Positions 4,579-12,690 of a stretch of DNA of 25,821 nt are shown here, piece by piece. The stretch covers positions 1 through 25,821 of the IMG/VR virus record IMGVR_UViG_3300042305_001758. One strand, written 5' to 3'. Each line of letters opens with the position of its first letter. Positions within the stretch are counted from its first letter, which is position 1. The translations under genes were made by a program, and so were the position numbers. Source of the DNA: a virus. The notes under the pieces were generated by a model, which ran no database searches, was not told the origin of the DNA, and saw only the letters and a list, made by a program, of their open reading frames with translations.

Positions 4579-4601
4579 AAAGCCCCGAAAGGGGCTTTTT
4601 T
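4579..4601. terminator. Bidirectional rho-independent terminator
   Basis: An 8-bp perfect stem AAAGCCCC / GGGGCTTT encloses a GAAA tetraloop and is followed by a T run on the + strand. On the minus strand the same hairpin is followed by a T-rich tract (TTTCGTTTTTA). It lies 5 nt after the gp32 stop. The stop codon of the converging tape-measure gene (4600-4602) is inside the T run, so one hairpin most likely ends both transcripts. Confidence 0.92.
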
Positions 4602-7600
4602 ATACCCTAGCTAAAAAGAATCCGTTAGTCAGATTTCTATCATTACTGTTCAGAATAGGATGATAATCTCTAACTTTATCATCGTTCATAATGATTGCTG
4701 TTGGTGATGATGTCGATGCATTCACAGAATTATCTATGTACAGAGGATTTGTTGATCCGCCAGCGGCAGAGCCACCTTGATTTGTAGTTCCAGTATAACC
4801 ACCAGTCACTAAGAATTCACCGGATGCACCTGAAGTTCCTGATGACACTTGAGTGGATGGCTGTGAAGAAAAATAAGGAGTATATGTGGGACTGTCAACG
4901 TATGTTTGTGCTAAGCCACCAAATGAACCCACAGCATATTCTCCAGTATATCCGATAGAAGAAGACACTTCACCAACATAATTTGCAAAAGGTGCAACAA
5001 GGTCAGTAACAACTTGTTCGGTTTCTTTTGCCTTTTCCTGTTTTTCTACCTCTAGATTGATAAATGCTTTTAGTGCATTATCGAACTCATCGGCAAAATC
5101 CATAAGCTTGAATCCCATGCTGGTATCTTTTTTATTCAGAGATTCAACAACTCCTCTAAACGTGTCGTAATTTTTTCTTAGGGTTGCTTCAACGTCAATC
5201 ACCCCTTCGCCAGTTAAAACTTTAGAGAATTCTTGAAGACCTTCCACCTGCTTGAAAAGTTCAGTGCCTTGAAATCCTGATACAATCTTTTCGGTTTCTT
5301 GTGCCATTCTCTTTCTATTTGATTCCATGATATACATATTCTTTTCAGTTTCAGTATACATGATATCAAAATAAGTTCCAACAACACGACTAAAGTTTTC
5401 ACGCTGTTGATCTAAAGTATCTCCACCAAACGTTCCAATCAGACTTTGCTTAAACCCAGCCAAATCTGCTAAAGTTTTTGATCTGAAAGTTTCGGATAAT
5501 TTATCGGCCGTGAATCCTAACTTAAACATTGCATCATCAAAAATTATGGTGCTGTTGGCTAAGTTAGCCATTGTTTGAATTAATTCTTCATTTGCAAATT
5601 TAAACTTCTCAACTCCAGCATAGACCGTTTGAATCATATTATTAGAAAATGATGTGATCATATCACCAAATGCTTTGGCCATTCCTGCTTCATCTAGGCC
5701 TTTTAAACTCATACTAATTTGCTGAGTGAAGTTTCTTGTTTTTTGTGCAGCCTCATCACCGTAGCCAAGTATTTGGCCATATGATCTAACAAGTTCATTT
5801 CTACTAGAAATAGCACCGCCAATTGCATCTAAAGATGCTTGGTCTACTGCCGAAACTTCAGTTCCGCTTCGATCACTTCTGTATCGTCCACCTTTCTGAA
5901 ACCAATTCTTATATTGCTCAAGGCTGGTGGCATCTTCTCCAAGCGTTCCTCTTATACCATAATCTGTGTATTCTTTGGCCTTCATACCAAACAGTCTGTT
6001 CAACACTGCACCACCTAAACCGATTAAAGGCGCGAATGGTGTCAACCCAGGAATCATAGCAGCGGCGCCAACTAACTTATTGAAATTTTTGTTTATCGAA
6101 TAGCCACCAGAAAGACCCTCTGCAAGACCATATGAAGAAAAACCTCCTAAAAGAGATCCGGCCAAAGCGCCGCCGGCGGTGGCGCCGCCAGTAGACATAG
6201 CACCTGAAAATCCTGAAAGACTTCCTGTGCCCATAGACATACCAGCACCGAAGTTGGCCATGCCAGCACCTAGTTGTCCTCCCAATGATGTAAACCCTGC
6301 CGGACCAAATGCTCCTTGTGCAAGTGCTGAACTCATTAATGATGAACCGCCAGACGTTAGCAGTTTAGCCAATCCAGGAATCATTCCCCCACCAAGAAGA
6401 TTATTGACAGAGCCTGCCACACCCATACCAATTTCGCCCATAGTTGACGCGCCAGTTATACCCTTTAAACCTAACGCATTACTTAATGATCCTGTTAAAC
6501 TAAAACTCGATAGACCTTTACCGCCAAACATTTGCAGAGAACCTAAAAGGCTGCTGATAACAGGAGATGCAACATTCATCATCGCCATATTACCAAGTAA
6601 TCCTTTCACGCCTATTTTGTTACCAAGTTGTCGGGTTAGAGCATACGACAGAAGAGGAACCATAGCAGGCATTGATCTACTCAATCTAGACATTGCAGAA
6701 GGTGTTCCTGCCATACCAGATTCGAGAGCAAGAATATCTTGTTCTCCTGGAAATGTTGCCATAAATGGCATTTGAGATGGGCCTGAATAATATGGTCCGT
6801 AAGGAACACCACCCATGCCTCCCATAGGAGCATATGGATTAAATCCTCCTGATGTCATCATCGGATACCCATATATTGTAGATGGGGTCATCATACCCCC
6901 ACCAGGCATGCCAATCATCGTTCCGCCTCCGATGCCACCGAAACCTCGCATGCCTCCGTACATACCACCCATTCCAGCCGCGCCGGTTGTGCCGAATATT
7001 GGTGCAAACGGTGATGCTGATGCCATACCTAAACTTATTGCAAGTTGATTTAATCCCTGCTCATATCCTAAGAAACTTCTGATTCCAGTTGGCACTCCAC
7101 TCAAGCCAAAGATAATATCTTCAAGAGCCATATCTTTATATTTTTTCTCTTGATCTTTTAGGCTCTTATAAATTGTTTCTCTTTGAGAAATTTGTTGACG
7201 GAGAGAAACAAGAGCACCATATCTCTGTTGCTGATTGGCATCAAATCCTCCAGCAGCGCCAGCCTTAATTAATTCTGCCATAGAGAAGCCAGTTTCTTTT
7301 TCAAGCTTTACTAGTTCATTTCTTGAGTTTGCCAATTCTCGTTCAACTTGTTTCATCTGAGGTCTGAATTGTCTGGACGCAATCAGATTATTGATCGAAC
7401 GATTCAATTGTCCAGCCTTCATTCCTAATGCGGGAGCCATTGTATTATTGATGAATTGATCTAAGTAATTTCCTGCAAGATTATTAAATATGTACGCCAT
7501 TGGTGCGCCCATTTGGTCACCAAATATTTTAGTTCCCCCACGAATAAATCCTTCGACAATTCCAGGCTGATTAGCAATGTTATATCCAGCCCTAGATGTT

Positions 7601-10344
7601 TGTCCACCAAATCCCATCGGACCAACCATCTTTGAAAAGGCCTGTCTATACATCTGAATCATGTTATTGTTAAACTGGTCTTGTAACTGCGCCCTCTCCT
7701 GTCTGTAAGACTCATCGTTTCTGTAGTAATCTCTACTTAAGAAATATTGGTCTTTACTATATTGAGCATTTTGCCCCCATAACTCCATGGGAGAAGGTGA
7801 TCTGTTTATACGAAAAGCGTCTGCTCCACCTTGAGCAAAAATATATCTAAATTGTTCACTGAACGCTTCTAGTGATGTGAAAGTTCCATTTTTAACAGCT
7901 TTTTCAAGTTCCTGCTCAAAAAGGACTTTACCTGGTGCATTTCCTTTATATAGGTTGGGGTTGTTTCGGGTCTTACCATAAAGAGTATTGTATGCCGCAT
8001 CTATCGCGGCAAAGTCGCCCACGATAGGATTTGTTCCTGTCACTGCGGAAACAGCGCGAGCCGTGTTTCTAGCATTACTCGCGTTTCTCATCATCGCGGC
8101 GCCAAGATCAGAGTCTTCATAATCTTGAGCAGTCATTCTATATCTACCAGTTAAATCAAATGGCGTTTTTGGACGGAACACTGGAGGTAACTGATTTATG
8201 AGCCAATTAACCCCGTCCTCAATAAATCCAAACATTAGTTTGGTGATGTCAACAAAAGCACCCGCCAAATTTTTAACCTGTGCAACAACAGCATCTTGTA
8301 CTGAGCCGACACTTTTCATCATTTTTGCAGTGTCGAAAGTTATTATTCCTATAATAATATCAAGAACTCCCATAAACGCGGCAGCCGCGTTTTGTCCAGT
8401 TGTTTTCAGACCAGCCAATAAAACATCATAAACCTTCATCATCGTGTCGCTGAAGAGAAAGTCTTTCATGAAATCAATGAATTTACCGAAACCTTTCATA
8501 ACGGCATCAACAACTTCACCGACTTTAGTATAAAGTGCCATGGCAGGTTCTGAAGTTAATACTTGTCCAAAAAATACTAGCATTGATTTTAATGCATTGA
8601 ACACTACTGATATATTCTTGGTCAAAAAGTCGGTTACCATTCCCTGAACGGTTCTCTTTTTACCGCCCATCATATTACCCATCATATCTTCACCGACTTC
8701 TTGACCTAAATCGATGTCCATTAAGTCTAATAATAAATCAATTATACCAAAAACGCTTCCTAAAAATCCTCCAGCAAACGCCGCTAGCCTGTCTGCAATT
8801 GTCAGTTCTTGTCCCTCTGTTTTACCTAATACAGATTTTAGATTTTTATCATTAAAGAGTGCATTCGACATGCCGTCAAAAACACCAATAATTGCGCCGA
8901 GAGGTTTTGCTATTGCTAAAACTTTTTTGACAATAACATCGAAGTCGCTTATGTCTGCTATAAATTTGAGTGAAGAACCTATTGATTTTCCAATTGAAGA
9001 AAACATTTCAAGAATTCTTGCCATAGGGCCGGCCGTTTTTGCAATGTCACCTACTACAGCAGTTCCTTTTACTGCATCTGCGCCGGTTGCGGCTTTTATG
9101 GCATCTTCAACACCAGCGGCGGCTGGCGCCGCGCGTCCACCTTCGGCGGCTGTCATTTTTGAAGTCTCTAACTTTGCTACATCAATTTCACCAATTCGTA
9201 TTTCTGATGACGTAATCATTGGAGCTTCTAACTTTGAAAAATCCTTCAGATTAAATTCTATAGTCGGCACCTTTTCAGGCATGACAACTTTAATTTCAGG
9301 AAGCTTGATTTCTGGAACCGTAGTCTTAACCGTTCCTATTTGAGAGATAGCTTTAGCAATTTCTTCAAATAAATTAGCTACCGTTCGACCTATCTTAGAC
9401 TCTGAAACTATTTTTATTACATCATCTAATCTAGATTTGAAAATATCAGTAAGTGCTGAAAATTTTCCCTTAACTGATTTTCCGAGTTCATCGAGTTGAT
9501 CGCCAATCACCGCCATATTCACAAGAAAATTGTTTTTAAATTTTCTGAATGCATCGGCTAGATCATCAATTCTTAAAAATTTACCTAAATCTTCTATGCC
9601 TTTTTTGAAAACATTTTTGAAATTTTCAAAAAACGATTTGAACCCGCGCAAAATATCTTCAAAGGAAGATTTTAATCCTTTAAATATATCTTCTAAAAAC
9701 TTAGGAGTTTTTAAATCTTTGAAAACATTTTTGAAAATGTTTTTGAAGTCTTCAAAGAATAGTTTCAATCCTCTTAAGATGTCATCAAAAGAAAATTTTA
9801 GTCCTTTAAATATATCATCTAAATTCGGAAGTCTTTCTAACAGACCCTTTAACTTCTCAAAAAGACTTGATAATAGTTTACCTATATTTTCTAACGTATT
9901 TTTTAGACTTTTGAACATCTCATCTAAAAAAGATATAAATTTTCCTAATTTTTTATCCAAGTCTTCTAAAAATTTTCCAAACATCGCTATCAAAGCAGTA
10001 AGCATTTCTTTCCAAGGATTTTTATCTTTGCTGGTGAAAGCTTTCAATAAATTTTTAAGAGTGTCATTGATCTCTTTTAGTTGACCTAGAATGTCAGTGA
10101 ACAATTTTTTCTGTTCATTGTTTTTTTCTTCATCAAAAGCTTTTTCTCTCTTACGTTCTTCTCTATCTTTTTTTATTTCTTTAGTTTGAGATTCAAAAGC
10201 TTTTTGAAGTCCTGCAACCATGGGACCAAAGACGGCGGGGTTGGCGCCAATAAATGACCCCTTAACCCCGCCTAAGAAATTGCCGGCGGCGCCTTTTATC
10301 GATCCTGTTATTTTTGATGCTAGTGCTTCTGATAGATTTGCCAT
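4600..10344 (-). CDS. Putative tail tape-measure protein (gp29-equivalent), very large
   Basis: This 1914-residue protein is the last gene of the minus operon. Its place directly after the gp26-like chaperone and the 66-aa ORF is where tape-measure genes lie in contractile and siphovirus tails. The N-terminal 350 residues are highly helical, Lys/Phe-rich and periodic, with aromatic residues recurring as in known tape measures. A 42-residue unit is repeated in tandem at bases 9822-9697 and 9696-9571 (LDDIFKGLKFSFDDILRG and LEDIFKGLKSSFEDILRG). Residues about 410-480 are Ala/Gly-rich linkers, about 1115-1200 form a Gly/Met-rich low-complexity stretch, and about 1290-1450 are Gly/Ala/Leu-rich and could contact membrane. 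T4 gp29 has 590 residues, so this is more than three times longer. A GAAGAAG lies upstream of the start. The role is inferred mainly from position and composition; another tail-interior or fibre-like function is possible. Confidence 0.7.
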   Translation of the reverse strand: MANLSEALASKITGSIKGAAGNFLGGVKGSFIGANPAVFGPMVAGLQKAFESQTKEIKKDREERKREKAFDEEKNNEQKKLFTDILGQLKEINDTLKNLLKAFTSKDKNPWKEMLTALIAMFGKFLEDLDKKLGKFISFLDEMFKSLKNTLENIGKLLSSLFEKLKGLLERLPNLDDIFKGLKFSFDDILRGLKLFFEDFKNIFKNVFKDLKTPKFLEDIFKGLKSSFEDILRGFKSFFENFKNVFKKGIEDLGKFLRIDDLADAFRKFKNNFLVNMAVIGDQLDELGKSVKGKFSALTDIFKSRLDDVIKIVSESKIGRTVANLFEEIAKAISQIGTVKTTVPEIKLPEIKVVMPEKVPTIEFNLKDFSKLEAPMITSSEIRIGEIDVAKLETSKMTAAEGGRAAPAAAGVEDAIKAATGADAVKGTAVVGDIAKTAGPMARILEMFSSIGKSIGSSLKFIADISDFDVIVKKVLAIAKPLGAIIGVFDGMSNALFNDKNLKSVLGKTEGQELTIADRLAAFAGGFLGSVFGIIDLLLDLMDIDLGQEVGEDMMGNMMGGKKRTVQGMVTDFLTKNISVVFNALKSMLVFFGQVLTSEPAMALYTKVGEVVDAVMKGFGKFIDFMKDFLFSDTMMKVYDVLLAGLKTTGQNAAAAFMGVLDIIIGIITFDTAKMMKSVGSVQDAVVAQVKNLAGAFVDITKLMFGFIEDGVNWLINQLPPVFRPKTPFDLTGRYRMTAQDYEDSDLGAAMMRNASNARNTARAVSAVTGTNPIVGDFAAIDAAYNTLYGKTRNNPNLYKGNAPGKVLFEQELEKAVKNGTFTSLEAFSEQFRYIFAQGGADAFRINRSPSPMELWGQNAQYSKDQYFLSRDYYRNDESYRQERAQLQDQFNNNMIQMYRQAFSKMVGPMGFGGQTSRAGYNIANQPGIVEGFIRGGTKIFGDQMGAPMAYIFNNLAGNYLDQFINNTMAPALGMKAGQLNRSINNLIASRQFRPQMKQVERELANSRNELVKLEKETGFSMAELIKAGAAGGFDANQQQRYGALVSLRQQISQRETIYKSLKDQEKKYKDMALEDIIFGLSGVPTGIRSFLGYEQGLNQLAISLGMASASPFAPIFGTTGAAGMGGMYGGMRGFGGIGGGTMIGMPGGGMMTPSTIYGYPMMTSGGFNPYAPMGGMGGVPYGPYYSGPSQMPFMATFPGEQDILALESGMAGTPSAMSRLSRSMPAMVPLLSYALTRQLGNKIGVKGLLGNMAMMNVASPVISSLLGSLQMFGGKGLSSFSLTGSLSNALGLKGITGASTMGEIGMGVAGSVNNLLGGGMIPGLAKLLTSGGSSLMSSALAQGAFGPAGFTSLGGQLGAGMANFGAGMSMGTGSLSGFSGAMSTGGATAGGALAGSLLGGFSSYGLAEGLSGGYSINKNFNKLVGAAAMIPGLTPFAPLIGLGGAVLNRLFGMKAKEYTDYGIRGTLGEDATSLEQYKNWFQKGGRYRSDRSGTEVSAVDQASLDAIGGAISSRNELVRSYGQILGYGDEAAQKTRNFTQQISMSLKGLDEAGMAKAFGDMITSFSNNMIQTVYAGVEKFKFANEELIQTMANLANSTIIFDDAMFKLGFTADKLSETFRSKTLADLAGFKQSLIGTFGGDTLDQQRENFSRVVGTYFDIMYTETEKNMYIMESNRKRMAQETEKIVSGFQGTELFKQVEGLQEFSKVLTGEGVIDVEATLRKNYDTFRGVVESLNKKDTSMGFKLMDFADEFDNALKAFINLEVEKQEKAKETEQVVTDLVAPFANYVGEVSSSIGYTGEYAVGSFGGLAQTYVDSPTYTPYFSSQPSTQVSSGTSGASGEFLVTGGYTGTTNQGGSAAGGSTNPLYIDNSVNASTSSPTAIIMNDDKVRDYHPILNSNDRNLTNGFFLARV
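9571..9822 (-). repeat. Two tandem 42-codon repeats in the tape-measure gene
   Basis: Two adjacent 126-bp units (9822-9697 and 9696-9571 in reading order) encode similar 42-residue segments. Each follows L-(D/E)-D-I-F-K-G-L-K, then S-F-(D/E)-D-I-L-R-G, then F-F-E-(D/N)-F-K-N-(I/V)-F-K. The DNA has diverged at third positions, so the duplication is not very recent. The segments are amphipathic with Phe at regular spacing. Confidence 0.85.
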
Positions 10345-10347
10345 ATA

Positions 10348-10548
10348 TTATCTTCTTCGTTTGCTTTTTGCCTCAGCCTCTTGAGACTTGATTCGTTCGT
10401 TTTCTTCTTTCAAAAACTGAGTTAACAAAGTAATATAGATTTCTCTTTCAAAGGGCATCATTTCTTCAAGTTCAGTTAAACTGTATTTATGATGTTGCAT
10501 GAGGGCAAAATTAGTCTTGTAGTGCGTAACTAAGTCCTCACTAGACAT
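10348..10548 (-). CDS. Tail assembly chaperone T-segment (66 aa), likely expressed by -1 frameshift from gp26
   Basis: This 66-residue, charged, helical protein (TELEEMMPFEREIYITLLTQ, then a Lys/Arg/Glu-rich tail ending in RRR) lies between gp26 and the tape measure. It takes the place of T4 gp51 but is far shorter than T4 gp51 (249 aa), so I do not give it that name. Its ATG is two bases after the gp26 TAG and has no purine-rich ribosome site. Its frame is open upstream through GCG, CTA, CGG into the T TTT TTC heptamer at the end of gp26, so a -1 slip would fuse it to gp26 (314 residues in total). This matches the G/GT layout of other tailed phages. Coupled re-initiation at the ATG is the alternative. 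Confidence 0.65.
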   Translation of the reverse strand: MSSEDLVTHYKTNFALMQHHKYSLTELEEMMPFEREIYITLLTQFLKEENERIKSQEAEAKSKRRR

Positions 10549-10550
10549 CG

Positions 10551-11291
10551 CTAGCCGAAAAAATTTGCCATTCCTTCCATTTCTACTTTATCGCTAGCGC
10601 CACAGCCTTCGCATTTCCATTTGACTACATGTTTTAGTTTTGGCATTGAGTTAAAGAACTGTGCAAGTTTTCCAAATTGCTCTTGCGACAAGTCGTTTAT
10701 GAATGCCATCAATTCTTCTTTTGTTGATTCTGAAGCGGGATAAACATTTTCAGCATCAAAAATGTAATCGATACTCTCGACGATAACAGAAACAACTGAA
10801 TCAATTTGATTCTGTGGTCCGAGTTGTTGCAGCCGATTAGCAAGTGCAACAGTAGGATATCTTAAGACAACACCGACTTTTGATTCGTCATCGATAATAA
10901 TTTTATTGGTGTGCCCTTCTTCCTTCTGCACTTCAACTTCTAACAGATTTAAAGTTTGTGAAGTTACGTGAGAACACTCAACACCCTTTGAATTTTTCCC
11001 ATCATTATGTTTTAGTTTAAGTTCAATCGTTTCTCCAATTGATTTTGCACGAAGCCGTAAGAAAAAATATTCCAAATCAAACATCGGCAAATCATCTACG
11101 TCAATCTCATCGACTGCGCAATTATTAATGATTTGCTTGATCGCTCGAAACATTTCTTCCGTTTCTTGGCTCTCTAGCGCCATCAAAAGTAGTTTTTGTT
11201 CTTTCACTAAGAAAGGTCTGTATTTGATAGATTTTCCAGTTGAAGGAATTTTCAATTCAAATATTGGTGATTTAAGTTTTGGTAAAGCCAT
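10551..11291 (-). CDS. 26: gp26-like baseplate hub / tail assembly chaperone protein
   Basis: This 246-residue protein is similar in size to T4 gp26 (208) and is preceded by GAGGAG at good spacing. The N-terminal region has KSIKYRPFLVKEQKLLLMAL (residues 18-37), the recognisable start of the T4 baseplate/gp26 family. A C-terminal CEGCG (228-232) suggests a partial zinc-ribbon-like element. gp26 is listed as a baseplate hub component in T4, but in many contractile phages the protein in this place is a tape-measure chaperone. The gene ends AAT TTT TTC GGC TAG: the T TTT TTC heptamer sits two codons before the stop, and the -1 frame continues into the following 66-aa ORF. Confidence 0.8.
   Translation of the reverse strand: MALPKLKSPIFELKIPSTGKSIKYRPFLVKEQKLLLMALESQETEEMFRAIKQIINNCAVDEIDVDDLPMFDLEYFFLRLRAKSIGETIELKLKHNDGKNSKGVECSHVTSQTLNLLEVEVQKEEGHTNKIIIDDESKVGVVLRYPTVALANRLQQLGPQNQIDSVVSVIVESIDYIFDAENVYPASESTKEELMAFINDLSQEQFGKLAQFFNSMPKLKHVVKWKCEGCGASDKVEMEGMANFFG
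10557..10563 (-). promoter_or_regulatory. Candidate -1 ribosomal frameshift site (T TTT TTC)
   Basis: The minus-strand heptamer T TTT TTC is in the correct X XXY YYZ phase for the gp26 frame (AAT TTT TTC GGC TAG). After a -1 slip the next codons are CGG CTA GCG ATG, which run without a stop into the 66-aa ORF. Only a weak CTAG/CTAG hairpin is visible just downstream, so any stimulatory structure is unproven. Confidence 0.65.
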
Positions 11292-11330: not shown

Positions 11331-12095
11331 TTATACCCGTCCTGCGCGTGCTTTTGCGGCCGCAAGAACGTCAGATGGACTTGATTGTCCAGCAAGAGCT
11401 AATTTTAAAACATCGGCCGGATTTACAGTAGCAGCAGGCACAACTGCTGGTGCAAATTCAACCACATGATATCTATATGATATGGTGGCAGAAAATCTCT
11501 GATATGTATTCTGTTCTTCCCAATTTAAATTCATAGTGCTTAGTTGAATTGGATAAGCTTCGTATAAAGTATATCGCGCAACAACACTTCCAGAATTATT
11601 AGTGTGATACAGTCTAACTTGACCAGTGGCATATTGATCATAGTATTTAATCAATCCAGCCTTTGATCCCATACCTCCGCCGGCCAAATTAGTATTATTC
11701 ACAATATTTTCCATCCATACCTCAAAAAATGCTCTCTCTATCATATCTTCACCTGCCATGATAGTTAGATTTATATCACTGTATGTAGTATCATATGCGT
11801 GTTTGGTTGTCGGACCAAAAGAAACATCTTCTGATGTAGCAATTGTTTTTCCTGGAAGTTCAGAAGATTCGCATCTAAACATAAAAGAATCGTTTATGCC
11901 TCTTGTTGCACTAAAACTTGATGCAAGTCTATCGAACCATGTTTTTCCCGATTGAACAGCACTACCAGAAATATCAGATTTCAATCTATTAATTATGGCA
12001 TTTCTTATGTACTCTGGTGCATCAATTTCTGCATAGAAATTATTTGGTCTAGTTAAGTTATCTAACTTACTCTTAAACGATGATAGTGCAAACAT
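11331..12095 (-). CDS. 54: gp54-like baseplate tail-tube initiator (gp19 tube fold)
   Basis: Taking the start at 12095 gives 254 residues. This ATG is one base past the stop of the upstream gene and follows an AGAGAG ribosome-like site. The longer frame (from 12176) would overlap that gene by 80 nt and add a charged, unconserved tail. The protein starts MFALSSFKSKLDNLTRPNNF, as tube-fold proteins do. ESSELPGKTIATSEDVSFGP and AFFEVWMENIVNN follow the tail-tube (gp19/gp54) pattern in order: a C-E-x-x-x-L-P-G strand, then the R-A-F-x-x-W helix. It is longer than T4 gp19 (163) and nearer gp54 (320). gp54 starts tube growth on the gp48 cap. Its location next to gp4, gp26 and gp48 favours gp54 over the tube monomer, which is expected elsewhere beside the sheath gene. 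Confidence 0.7.
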   Translation of the reverse strand: MFALSSFKSKLDNLTRPNNFYAEIDAPEYIRNAIINRLKSDISGSAVQSGKTWFDRLASSFSATRGINDSFMFRCESSELPGKTIATSEDVSFGPTTKHAYDTTYSDINLTIMAGEDMIERAFFEVWMENIVNNTNLAGGGMGSKAGLIKYYDQYATGQVRLYHTNNSGSVVARYTLYEAYPIQLSTMNLNWEEQNTYQRFSATISYRYHVVEFAPAVVPAATVNPADVLKLALAGQSSPSDVLAAAKARAGRV

Positions 12096-12096
12096 A

Positions 12097-12690
12097 TTAG
12101 ATTTTCTCTCTGCTTTCTTTCCAGATTGTATCTTTTGAAGACTTTCTAAATCTTTCTGTTGGTAAGAACAGTGCAATGTCCCATTCTTTAGCAGTTATTT
12201 CTAAAAATGGTGATCGAACATGCGAATTTAAATATTTTTTTAGTGTAGGTTTAAATGCTTTATATTTAGACGCACGTTTTAATATGCTATATGTTAAAAT
12301 CACTTTTGTATTTTCATCATATTTTCTGTCGGTTGTAGTTGAATATATTGCATTCATCAAATTAGCACGTAGAATTAAAGGTAAATAGTGAAAATTAATA
12401 CCTAAAAACCCGTCCGAATGAGTTTCTACTGGAAATATTAATGGAAAAGTGTCATAATATGGCAAATCCATTTTTGTTTTTGGATCATATACGAACATGT
12501 ACATGTTTCCAAGTTCTAATCTAGAAACTTTTCTTTTTGGATCAAAAGATTGTTGAACTCTTCCTGGTGAAACTCTATTAGAAGCTATTTGAGTTGCCGC
12601 GTCACGATACCAATCTCTGGCAAAAAGAGTTCTGCCAGGAAGAATATTGGCGGAGACTCCTTTATCTATGATTTGTTTAAAAATTAGCAT
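12097..12690 (-). CDS. Conserved T4-like phage protein of unknown function (197 aa)
   Basis: I do not recognise a function. The 197-residue protein has a central MYMFVYDPKTKMDLPYYDTF (residues 63-82), then GFLGINFHYLPLILRANLMN, and ends with WDIALFLPTERFRKSSKDTIW. Similar blocks recur, from memory, in marine T4-like phages as an unassigned gene near the tail operon. There are no cysteines, signal peptide or membrane segments. The neighbours are gp4 upstream (head completion) and gp54 downstream, so a virion or neck/baseplate assembly role is likely. In T4, gp2 (a DNA-end protector) is near gp4 and could be a functional counterpart, but I see no sequence support. A variant late promoter (CATAAATA) lies 25 nt upstream of its start. 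Confidence 0.7.
   Translation of the reverse strand: MLIFKQIIDKGVSANILPGRTLFARDWYRDAATQIASNRVSPGRVQQSFDPKRKVSRLELGNMYMFVYDPKTKMDLPYYDTFPLIFPVETHSDGFLGINFHYLPLILRANLMNAIYSTTTDRKYDENTKVILTYSILKRASKYKAFKPTLKKYLNSHVRSPFLEITAKEWDIALFLPTERFRKSSKDTIWKESREKI

Follow-up and report, generated by a model that had tools for sequence, protein, structure and literature searches.

The window analyzed here, a 25,821-nucleotide stretch of viral DNA (IMG/VR record IMGVR_UViG_3300042305_001758), carries T4-like core genes, among them a homolog of gp26 followed on the minus strand by a 66-aa open reading frame (ORF; 10548-10348, minus strand) and a long gene. The genes are as follows:

11331..12176, minus strand: tail tube family protein (gp19/gp54-like), directly upstream (phrog_45, E=1.8e-39; PF06841, E=1.2e-5, below cut-off); the true start may fall inside these bounds
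10551..11291, minus strand: gp26 homolog, 246 aa, the predicted TAC-N made by standard decoding (PF12322, E=1e-59; phrog_150, E=6e-68)
4600..10344, minus strand: predicted tape measure protein, 1914 aa, directly downstream (phrog_4200, tail length tape measure, E=5e-12)

The 66-aa ORF belongs to phrog_634, "baseplate hub assembly catalyst," that is, gp51 (E=2.7e-27), and the corresponding domain, denoted here the C-domain, is annotated in other records as "gp51 / hub assembly catalyst." Within the 282 positions of phrog_150, the 246-aa protein spans 5-232 and the 66-aa ORF spans 238-281 (E=6.5e-6); both thus map to successive parts of one public family, which therefore already holds fused members. 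The gp26 homolog and the C-domain sit between the tail tube family gene and the tape measure gene, as tail assembly chaperone (TAC) genes do. A first-pass annotation, made from the letters of the DNA, had assigned the pair to gp26/gp51 and placed it just ahead of a tape measure gene; the phrog_150, phrog_634 and PF12322 matches uphold the assignment, and the phrog_4200 match directly downstream upholds the placement.

On the minus strand, the sequence across the end of the gp26 homolog is GAA ATG GAA GGA ATG GCA AAT TTT TTC GGC TAG CG ATG TCT AGT. The junction comprises the following elements:

10571..10579 (approximate bounds), minus strand: Shine-Dalgarno-like element GGAAGGAAT, a candidate frameshift stimulator identified by anti-Shine-Dalgarno pairing and synonymous shuffles
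10557..10563, minus strand: slippery heptamer T_TTT_TTC, in phase, kept in 176/176 relatives not of the Ackermannviridae type, with codon-level conservation
10551..10553, minus strand: 0-frame stop TAG of gp26, one codon past the heptamer
10348..10557, minus strand: -1 extension, consisting of RLA and the 66-aa ORF (ATG at 10548), the C-domain of the predicted TAC-NC

A shift to the -1 frame gives TTT TTT CGG CTA GCG ATG TCT, which is stop-free into the 66-aa ORF, so that the predicted fusion is 245 + 3 + 66 = 314 aa long, with MANFF-RLAMSSEDL as the predicted peptide across the slip in this phage. On re-reading of the minus strand, the in-phase heptamer (10563->10557), the open -1 frame and the 314-aa fusion proved to be exactly as first described. 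The remark that the 66-aa ORF lacks a ribosome site of its own is also borne out: no Shine-Dalgarno sequence was found at normal spacing before its ATG, and a GGAAGGA motif lies ~22 nt upstream of that ATG. The window is AT-rich and holds 79 in-phase X_XXY_YYZ sites in 7,976 codons, including a second in-phase T_TTT_TTC at codon 76 of gp26, so the heptamer alone carries little weight and the case rests on comparison.

For this comparison, 80 IMG/VR loci were retrieved with the gp26 of the window and 80 with the gp26 of Pelagibacter phage Mosig; other queries gave smaller sets (2 loci with the gp26 of VH7D and 6 with that of T4), and 20 annotated cultured-phage regions were added. The heptamer was counted over the 199 loci in which the end of gp26 is complete, with T4-type loci set aside. 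An in-phase T_TTT_TT[C/T] lies 0-8 codons ahead of the stop in 176 of the 199 (TTTTTTC in 160, TTTTTTT in 16), and in these 176 loci, where the contig is long enough, the -1 frame continues for 56-70 codons past the heptamer. Among the carriers are Kyanoviridae, Straboviridae (Vibrio VH7D, Aeromonas AS-yj, Citrobacter Ci1), and Delftia, Stenotrophomonas and Rhizobium/Sinorhizobium phages. Conservation of the -1 product begins with the very first residue past the slip (R-[IL]). In Synechococcus phage S-CAM1, the predicted junction peptide is SFFRIAVFHNSLEGYYK. Loss of the heptamer in close relatives, or a stop between it and the 66-aa frame, had been named beforehand as evidence against a -1 frameshift joining gp26 to the 66-aa ORF. 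Neither was found in any close relative, and the joining is supported by the heptamer and open frame shared by these loci. In 16 loci (L086, Pelagibacter phage Mosig, and some of L103-L182), the heptamer stands 8 codons before the 0-frame stop rather than 0-2, giving a different tail on the short form.

Codon usage at the junction was analyzed in 126 loci, each pair less than 80% identical at the nucleotide level (median protein identity 40%). At the first Phe, TTT is used in all 126 (background 71%); at the second, TTC is used in 112 (89% compared with 29% in the background). The codon ahead of the pair has T as its last base in 126/126, whether it encodes Asn, Ser (both codon boxes), Asp or Ala. 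The first Phe column shows the highest synonymous conservation among the 243 columns scored. The nominal joint chance of this pattern is ~1e-42 under independence, an overstatement because the loci are related and the counts are not independent trials, so that the true figure is weaker. Judged from the aligned sequences, conservation of the junction is far beyond chance, and the direction of codon-level selection at the putative slip site is clear.

Just upstream of the heptamer, the pairing energy with the anti-Shine-Dalgarno sequence reaches a minimum across the 126 loci (mean -6.1 kcal/mol; gene background ~0), with the Shine-Dalgarno core ~10 nt upstream of the heptamer and GGAGGG at this position in the nearest relatives. 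The observed energy (-6.12) is stronger than in shuffles that keep the protein and codon usage (-4.87 +/- 0.12), as is that of the 15 closest loci (-8.5 compared with -5.7 +/- 0.4); hence, the element seems to be under selection for more than the amino acids it encodes. It is badly placed for starting translation of the C-domain. In Escherichia coli dnaX, a Shine-Dalgarno-like stimulator lies ~10 nt upstream of the heptamer. The dnaX site likewise combines a tandem slip heptamer (A_AAA_AAG) with this upstream stimulator, and the element described here could possibly act in the same way; dnaX also has a downstream stem-loop, and, unlike the shift proposed here, its shift ends synthesis rather than extending the protein. 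Minimum free energy profiles and z-scores of pseudoknot-free folds over the 126 loci gave neither a consistent downstream structure nor an energy peak specific to the position past the heptamer.

T4 provides a natural control. The 249-aa T4 gp51 covers phrog_150 positions 13-280 of 282, with PF12322 over its first 201 residues, and so is, by sequence, the fused form, consisting of a gp26-like domain and the C-domain; its C-terminus matches both the 66-aa ORF (BLAST) and the profile of -1 products. T4 gp26 is the short form. T4 thus has both protein forms, as here, but in separate genes on opposite strands, with no frameshift and no heptamer: gene 26 ends GAG TTC TTT GAG, where the codons TTC TTT retain Phe-Phe but no longer form the heptamer, and its -1 frame enters gene 25. 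As read from these genes, the putative slip site is lost where a gene encodes the fusion directly. One T4 relative (L189) reads G TTT TTT at this point.

The remaining 23 of the 199 loci are Ackermannviridae-type phages (L093, L097, L099, L191-L208), Aeromonas TSW001 (L095) and Vibrio K361 (L096). In all of them, gp26 ends [A/C]TT TTC, that is, TTTTC after A or C (for example, GAG ATT TTC ATT TAA in an Ackermannviridae junction), and an open -1 frame follows; a recognizable C-domain was found in this frame in each Ackermannviridae-type locus tested (L093, L097, L099, L196, L206). By its sequence, this motif would let the second codon alone re-pair. We give even odds to a broader scenario in which T_TTT_TTC and a selected Shine-Dalgarno-like element drive the slip across T4-like phages without a conserved downstream structure, the arrangement having been dissolved in the T-even lineage, with two genes in T4, and replaced by the non-canonical TTTTC, with one Phe codon re-pairing, in Ackermannviridae-type phages.

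The 66-aa ORF could instead be a separate small gene translated through termination-reinitiation coupling at TAG-CG-ATG. This window does have an in-frame ATG 2 nt past the gp26 stop, which could also permit coupled synthesis of a separate protein here, and a small "gp51" is annotated on its own in many records, but such an ATG is a minority state among relatives. Among 122 complete loci, 93 lack an ATG, and 78 lack any ATG, GTG or TTG, within the opening 12 codons of the -1 frame; a start preceded by a Shine-Dalgarno sequence occurs in just 5, and the first -1 ATG falls mostly at codon 18-32, within the conserved domain. Judged by these sequences, most relatives depend on the junction. Reinitiation would also leave the codon conservation of the heptamer unexplained, several records have a ~180-nt stretch without any gene there, and the two domains are fused in T4; we consider a separate gene improbable. 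Still less probable is slippage of RNA polymerase on the T run, yielding mRNAs of altered length from which the fusion is made by standard translation. A run of T6 is present, and such slippage is known in bacteria at runs of ~9 A or T (PMC5009743), but here the run is just six T, and 112/126 loci keep it at that length with TTC, where TTT, adding a seventh T, would encode the same residue. The exact codon phase is preserved, and the upstream element, apparently under selection, stands at ribosomal spacing; both count against this reading.

That the heptamer is kept merely through a need for Phe-Phe, together with the abundance of T in AT-rich genomes, we regard as the least credible reading, with hardly any probability left to it. 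The frequency of in-phase heptamers in the window would favor it, but the codon choice opposes the background at the second Phe, the joint chance given above is minute, though overstated because the loci are related, other in-phase T6Y sites in gp26 are missing from 102 of 126 loci, and T4 retains Phe-Phe without the heptamer.

We therefore favor, with a probability of about 0.93, a -1 frameshift at T_TTT_TTC that makes two predicted chaperone forms, TAC-N and TAC-NC. The gp26 homolog would be the short form, TAC-N. At T_TTT_TTC, a minority of ribosomes would move one base backward as tRNA-Phe re-pairs on TTT TTT, probably aided by pairing of the Shine-Dalgarno-like element with 16S rRNA; these ribosomes would bypass the TAG and continue in the -1 frame to yield the 314-aa TAC-NC, with the "66-aa ORF" as its C-domain. 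On sequence evidence only, the two forms would share the N-terminal domain and differ by the C-domain of the long form, and phrog_150 spans both. If the two forms work as lambda gpG/gpGT do, the tape measure protein would be coated by TAC-N, and tail-tube subunits would be brought in by the C-domain. Sequence and comparison establish the site, its phase, the open frame, selection at the codon level and the reliance of most relatives on the junction; the occurrence of slippage, its rate, the role of the Shine-Dalgarno-like element and the chaperone function are what we infer. In E. coli, U_UUU_UUA and U_UUU_UUU slip less than A_AAA_AAG (PMC5009743). U_UUU_UUC is likely a similarly weak slip site, which counts against frameshifting here.

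An AlphaFold model of the gp26 homolog (64 relatives) reached a pLDDT of 88.7. The sole plausible PDB fold match was the HK97 tail assembly chaperone 2ob9, whose two chains ranked 2-3 (probability 0.51-0.63, TM by target 0.44-0.51), a weak match by E value (0.46-0.54). In a library of viral predicted structures, the strongest named matches were gp26-type baseplate hub proteins. A PDB sequence search with the gp26 homolog gave no match; a search with the C-domain returned HIV gp41, rejected as chance coiled-coil similarity.

In lambda, the tail genes are ordered V-G-T-H, and the heptamer differs from T_TTT_TTC. The order of tube-like, chaperone, C-domain and tape measure genes in the window corresponds to V-G-T-H. 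The lambda gpG/gpGT frameshift and the conserved tail-gene frameshift of Xu, Hendrix and Duda 2004 likewise involve a -1 slip near the end of a chaperone gene that immediately precedes the tape measure gene; the short form is the major product and the long form the minor one, as proposed here. A 2016 review of recoding (PMC5009743) describes this lambda-type frameshift in tail genes as widely conserved "except T4," which now looks like an exception limited to the near relatives of T4. TACs of T4-like phages were identified by Vladimirov, Gautam and Davidson 2022 (Virology 566:9), as cited in PMC10885494 and PMC12846349; according to passages in these two papers, the TAC-N genes of T4-like phages are known to contain slippery poly-T sequences (PMC12846349), and some T4-like phages have a short gene and a fused gene in place of frameshifting (PMC10885494). 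Insofar as these passages describe them, the TACs of Vladimirov et al. are presumably the same gene pair (gp26/gp51 family) as here, given that the poly-T site and the short and fused genes match. The TAC locus of Pseudomonas phage Adele (Vandenendeviridae / Andersonviridae, PMC12846349) likewise has a -1 frameshift and a poly-T motif that is conserved ahead of the tape measure gene, on comparative evidence of a like type, with the motif GTTTTT and in different phage families.

The earlier statement that no report exists for this lineage is thus narrowly true, but frameshifting of this kind in T4-like TACs is known from the cited passages of PMC10885494 and PMC12846349. With lambda G/GT and the T4-like TACs already described, the finding belongs to a known kind and is not a new mechanism; what may be new are the Shine-Dalgarno-like element and the variant in Ackermannviridae-type phages. 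The element also gives a named, testable candidate for the stimulator.

The comparison provides a firm gene model for the tail assembly locus, for which cyanophage and other T4-like records mostly show two unrelated genes or a gap. In the 20 annotated cultured-phage regions inspected, no joined CDS was found for the TAC locus. About 170-500 nt after gp26 are without an annotated gene, despite a C-domain in the -1 frame, in S-CAM1 (L083), DSL-LC03 (L100), ACG-2014j (L102), AS-yj (L094) and aagejoakim (L099).

Elsewhere in the window, several ORFs of up to 209 aa with biased composition lie on the plus strand at 5823-10084, antisense to the tape measure gene; most likely, they are mirror ORFs of a repetitive coding strand and not genes. 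At 231-2172, three consecutive ORFs beside the T4-like core genes resemble, by eye, a sugar acetyltransferase, a methyltransferase and a glycosyltransferase.
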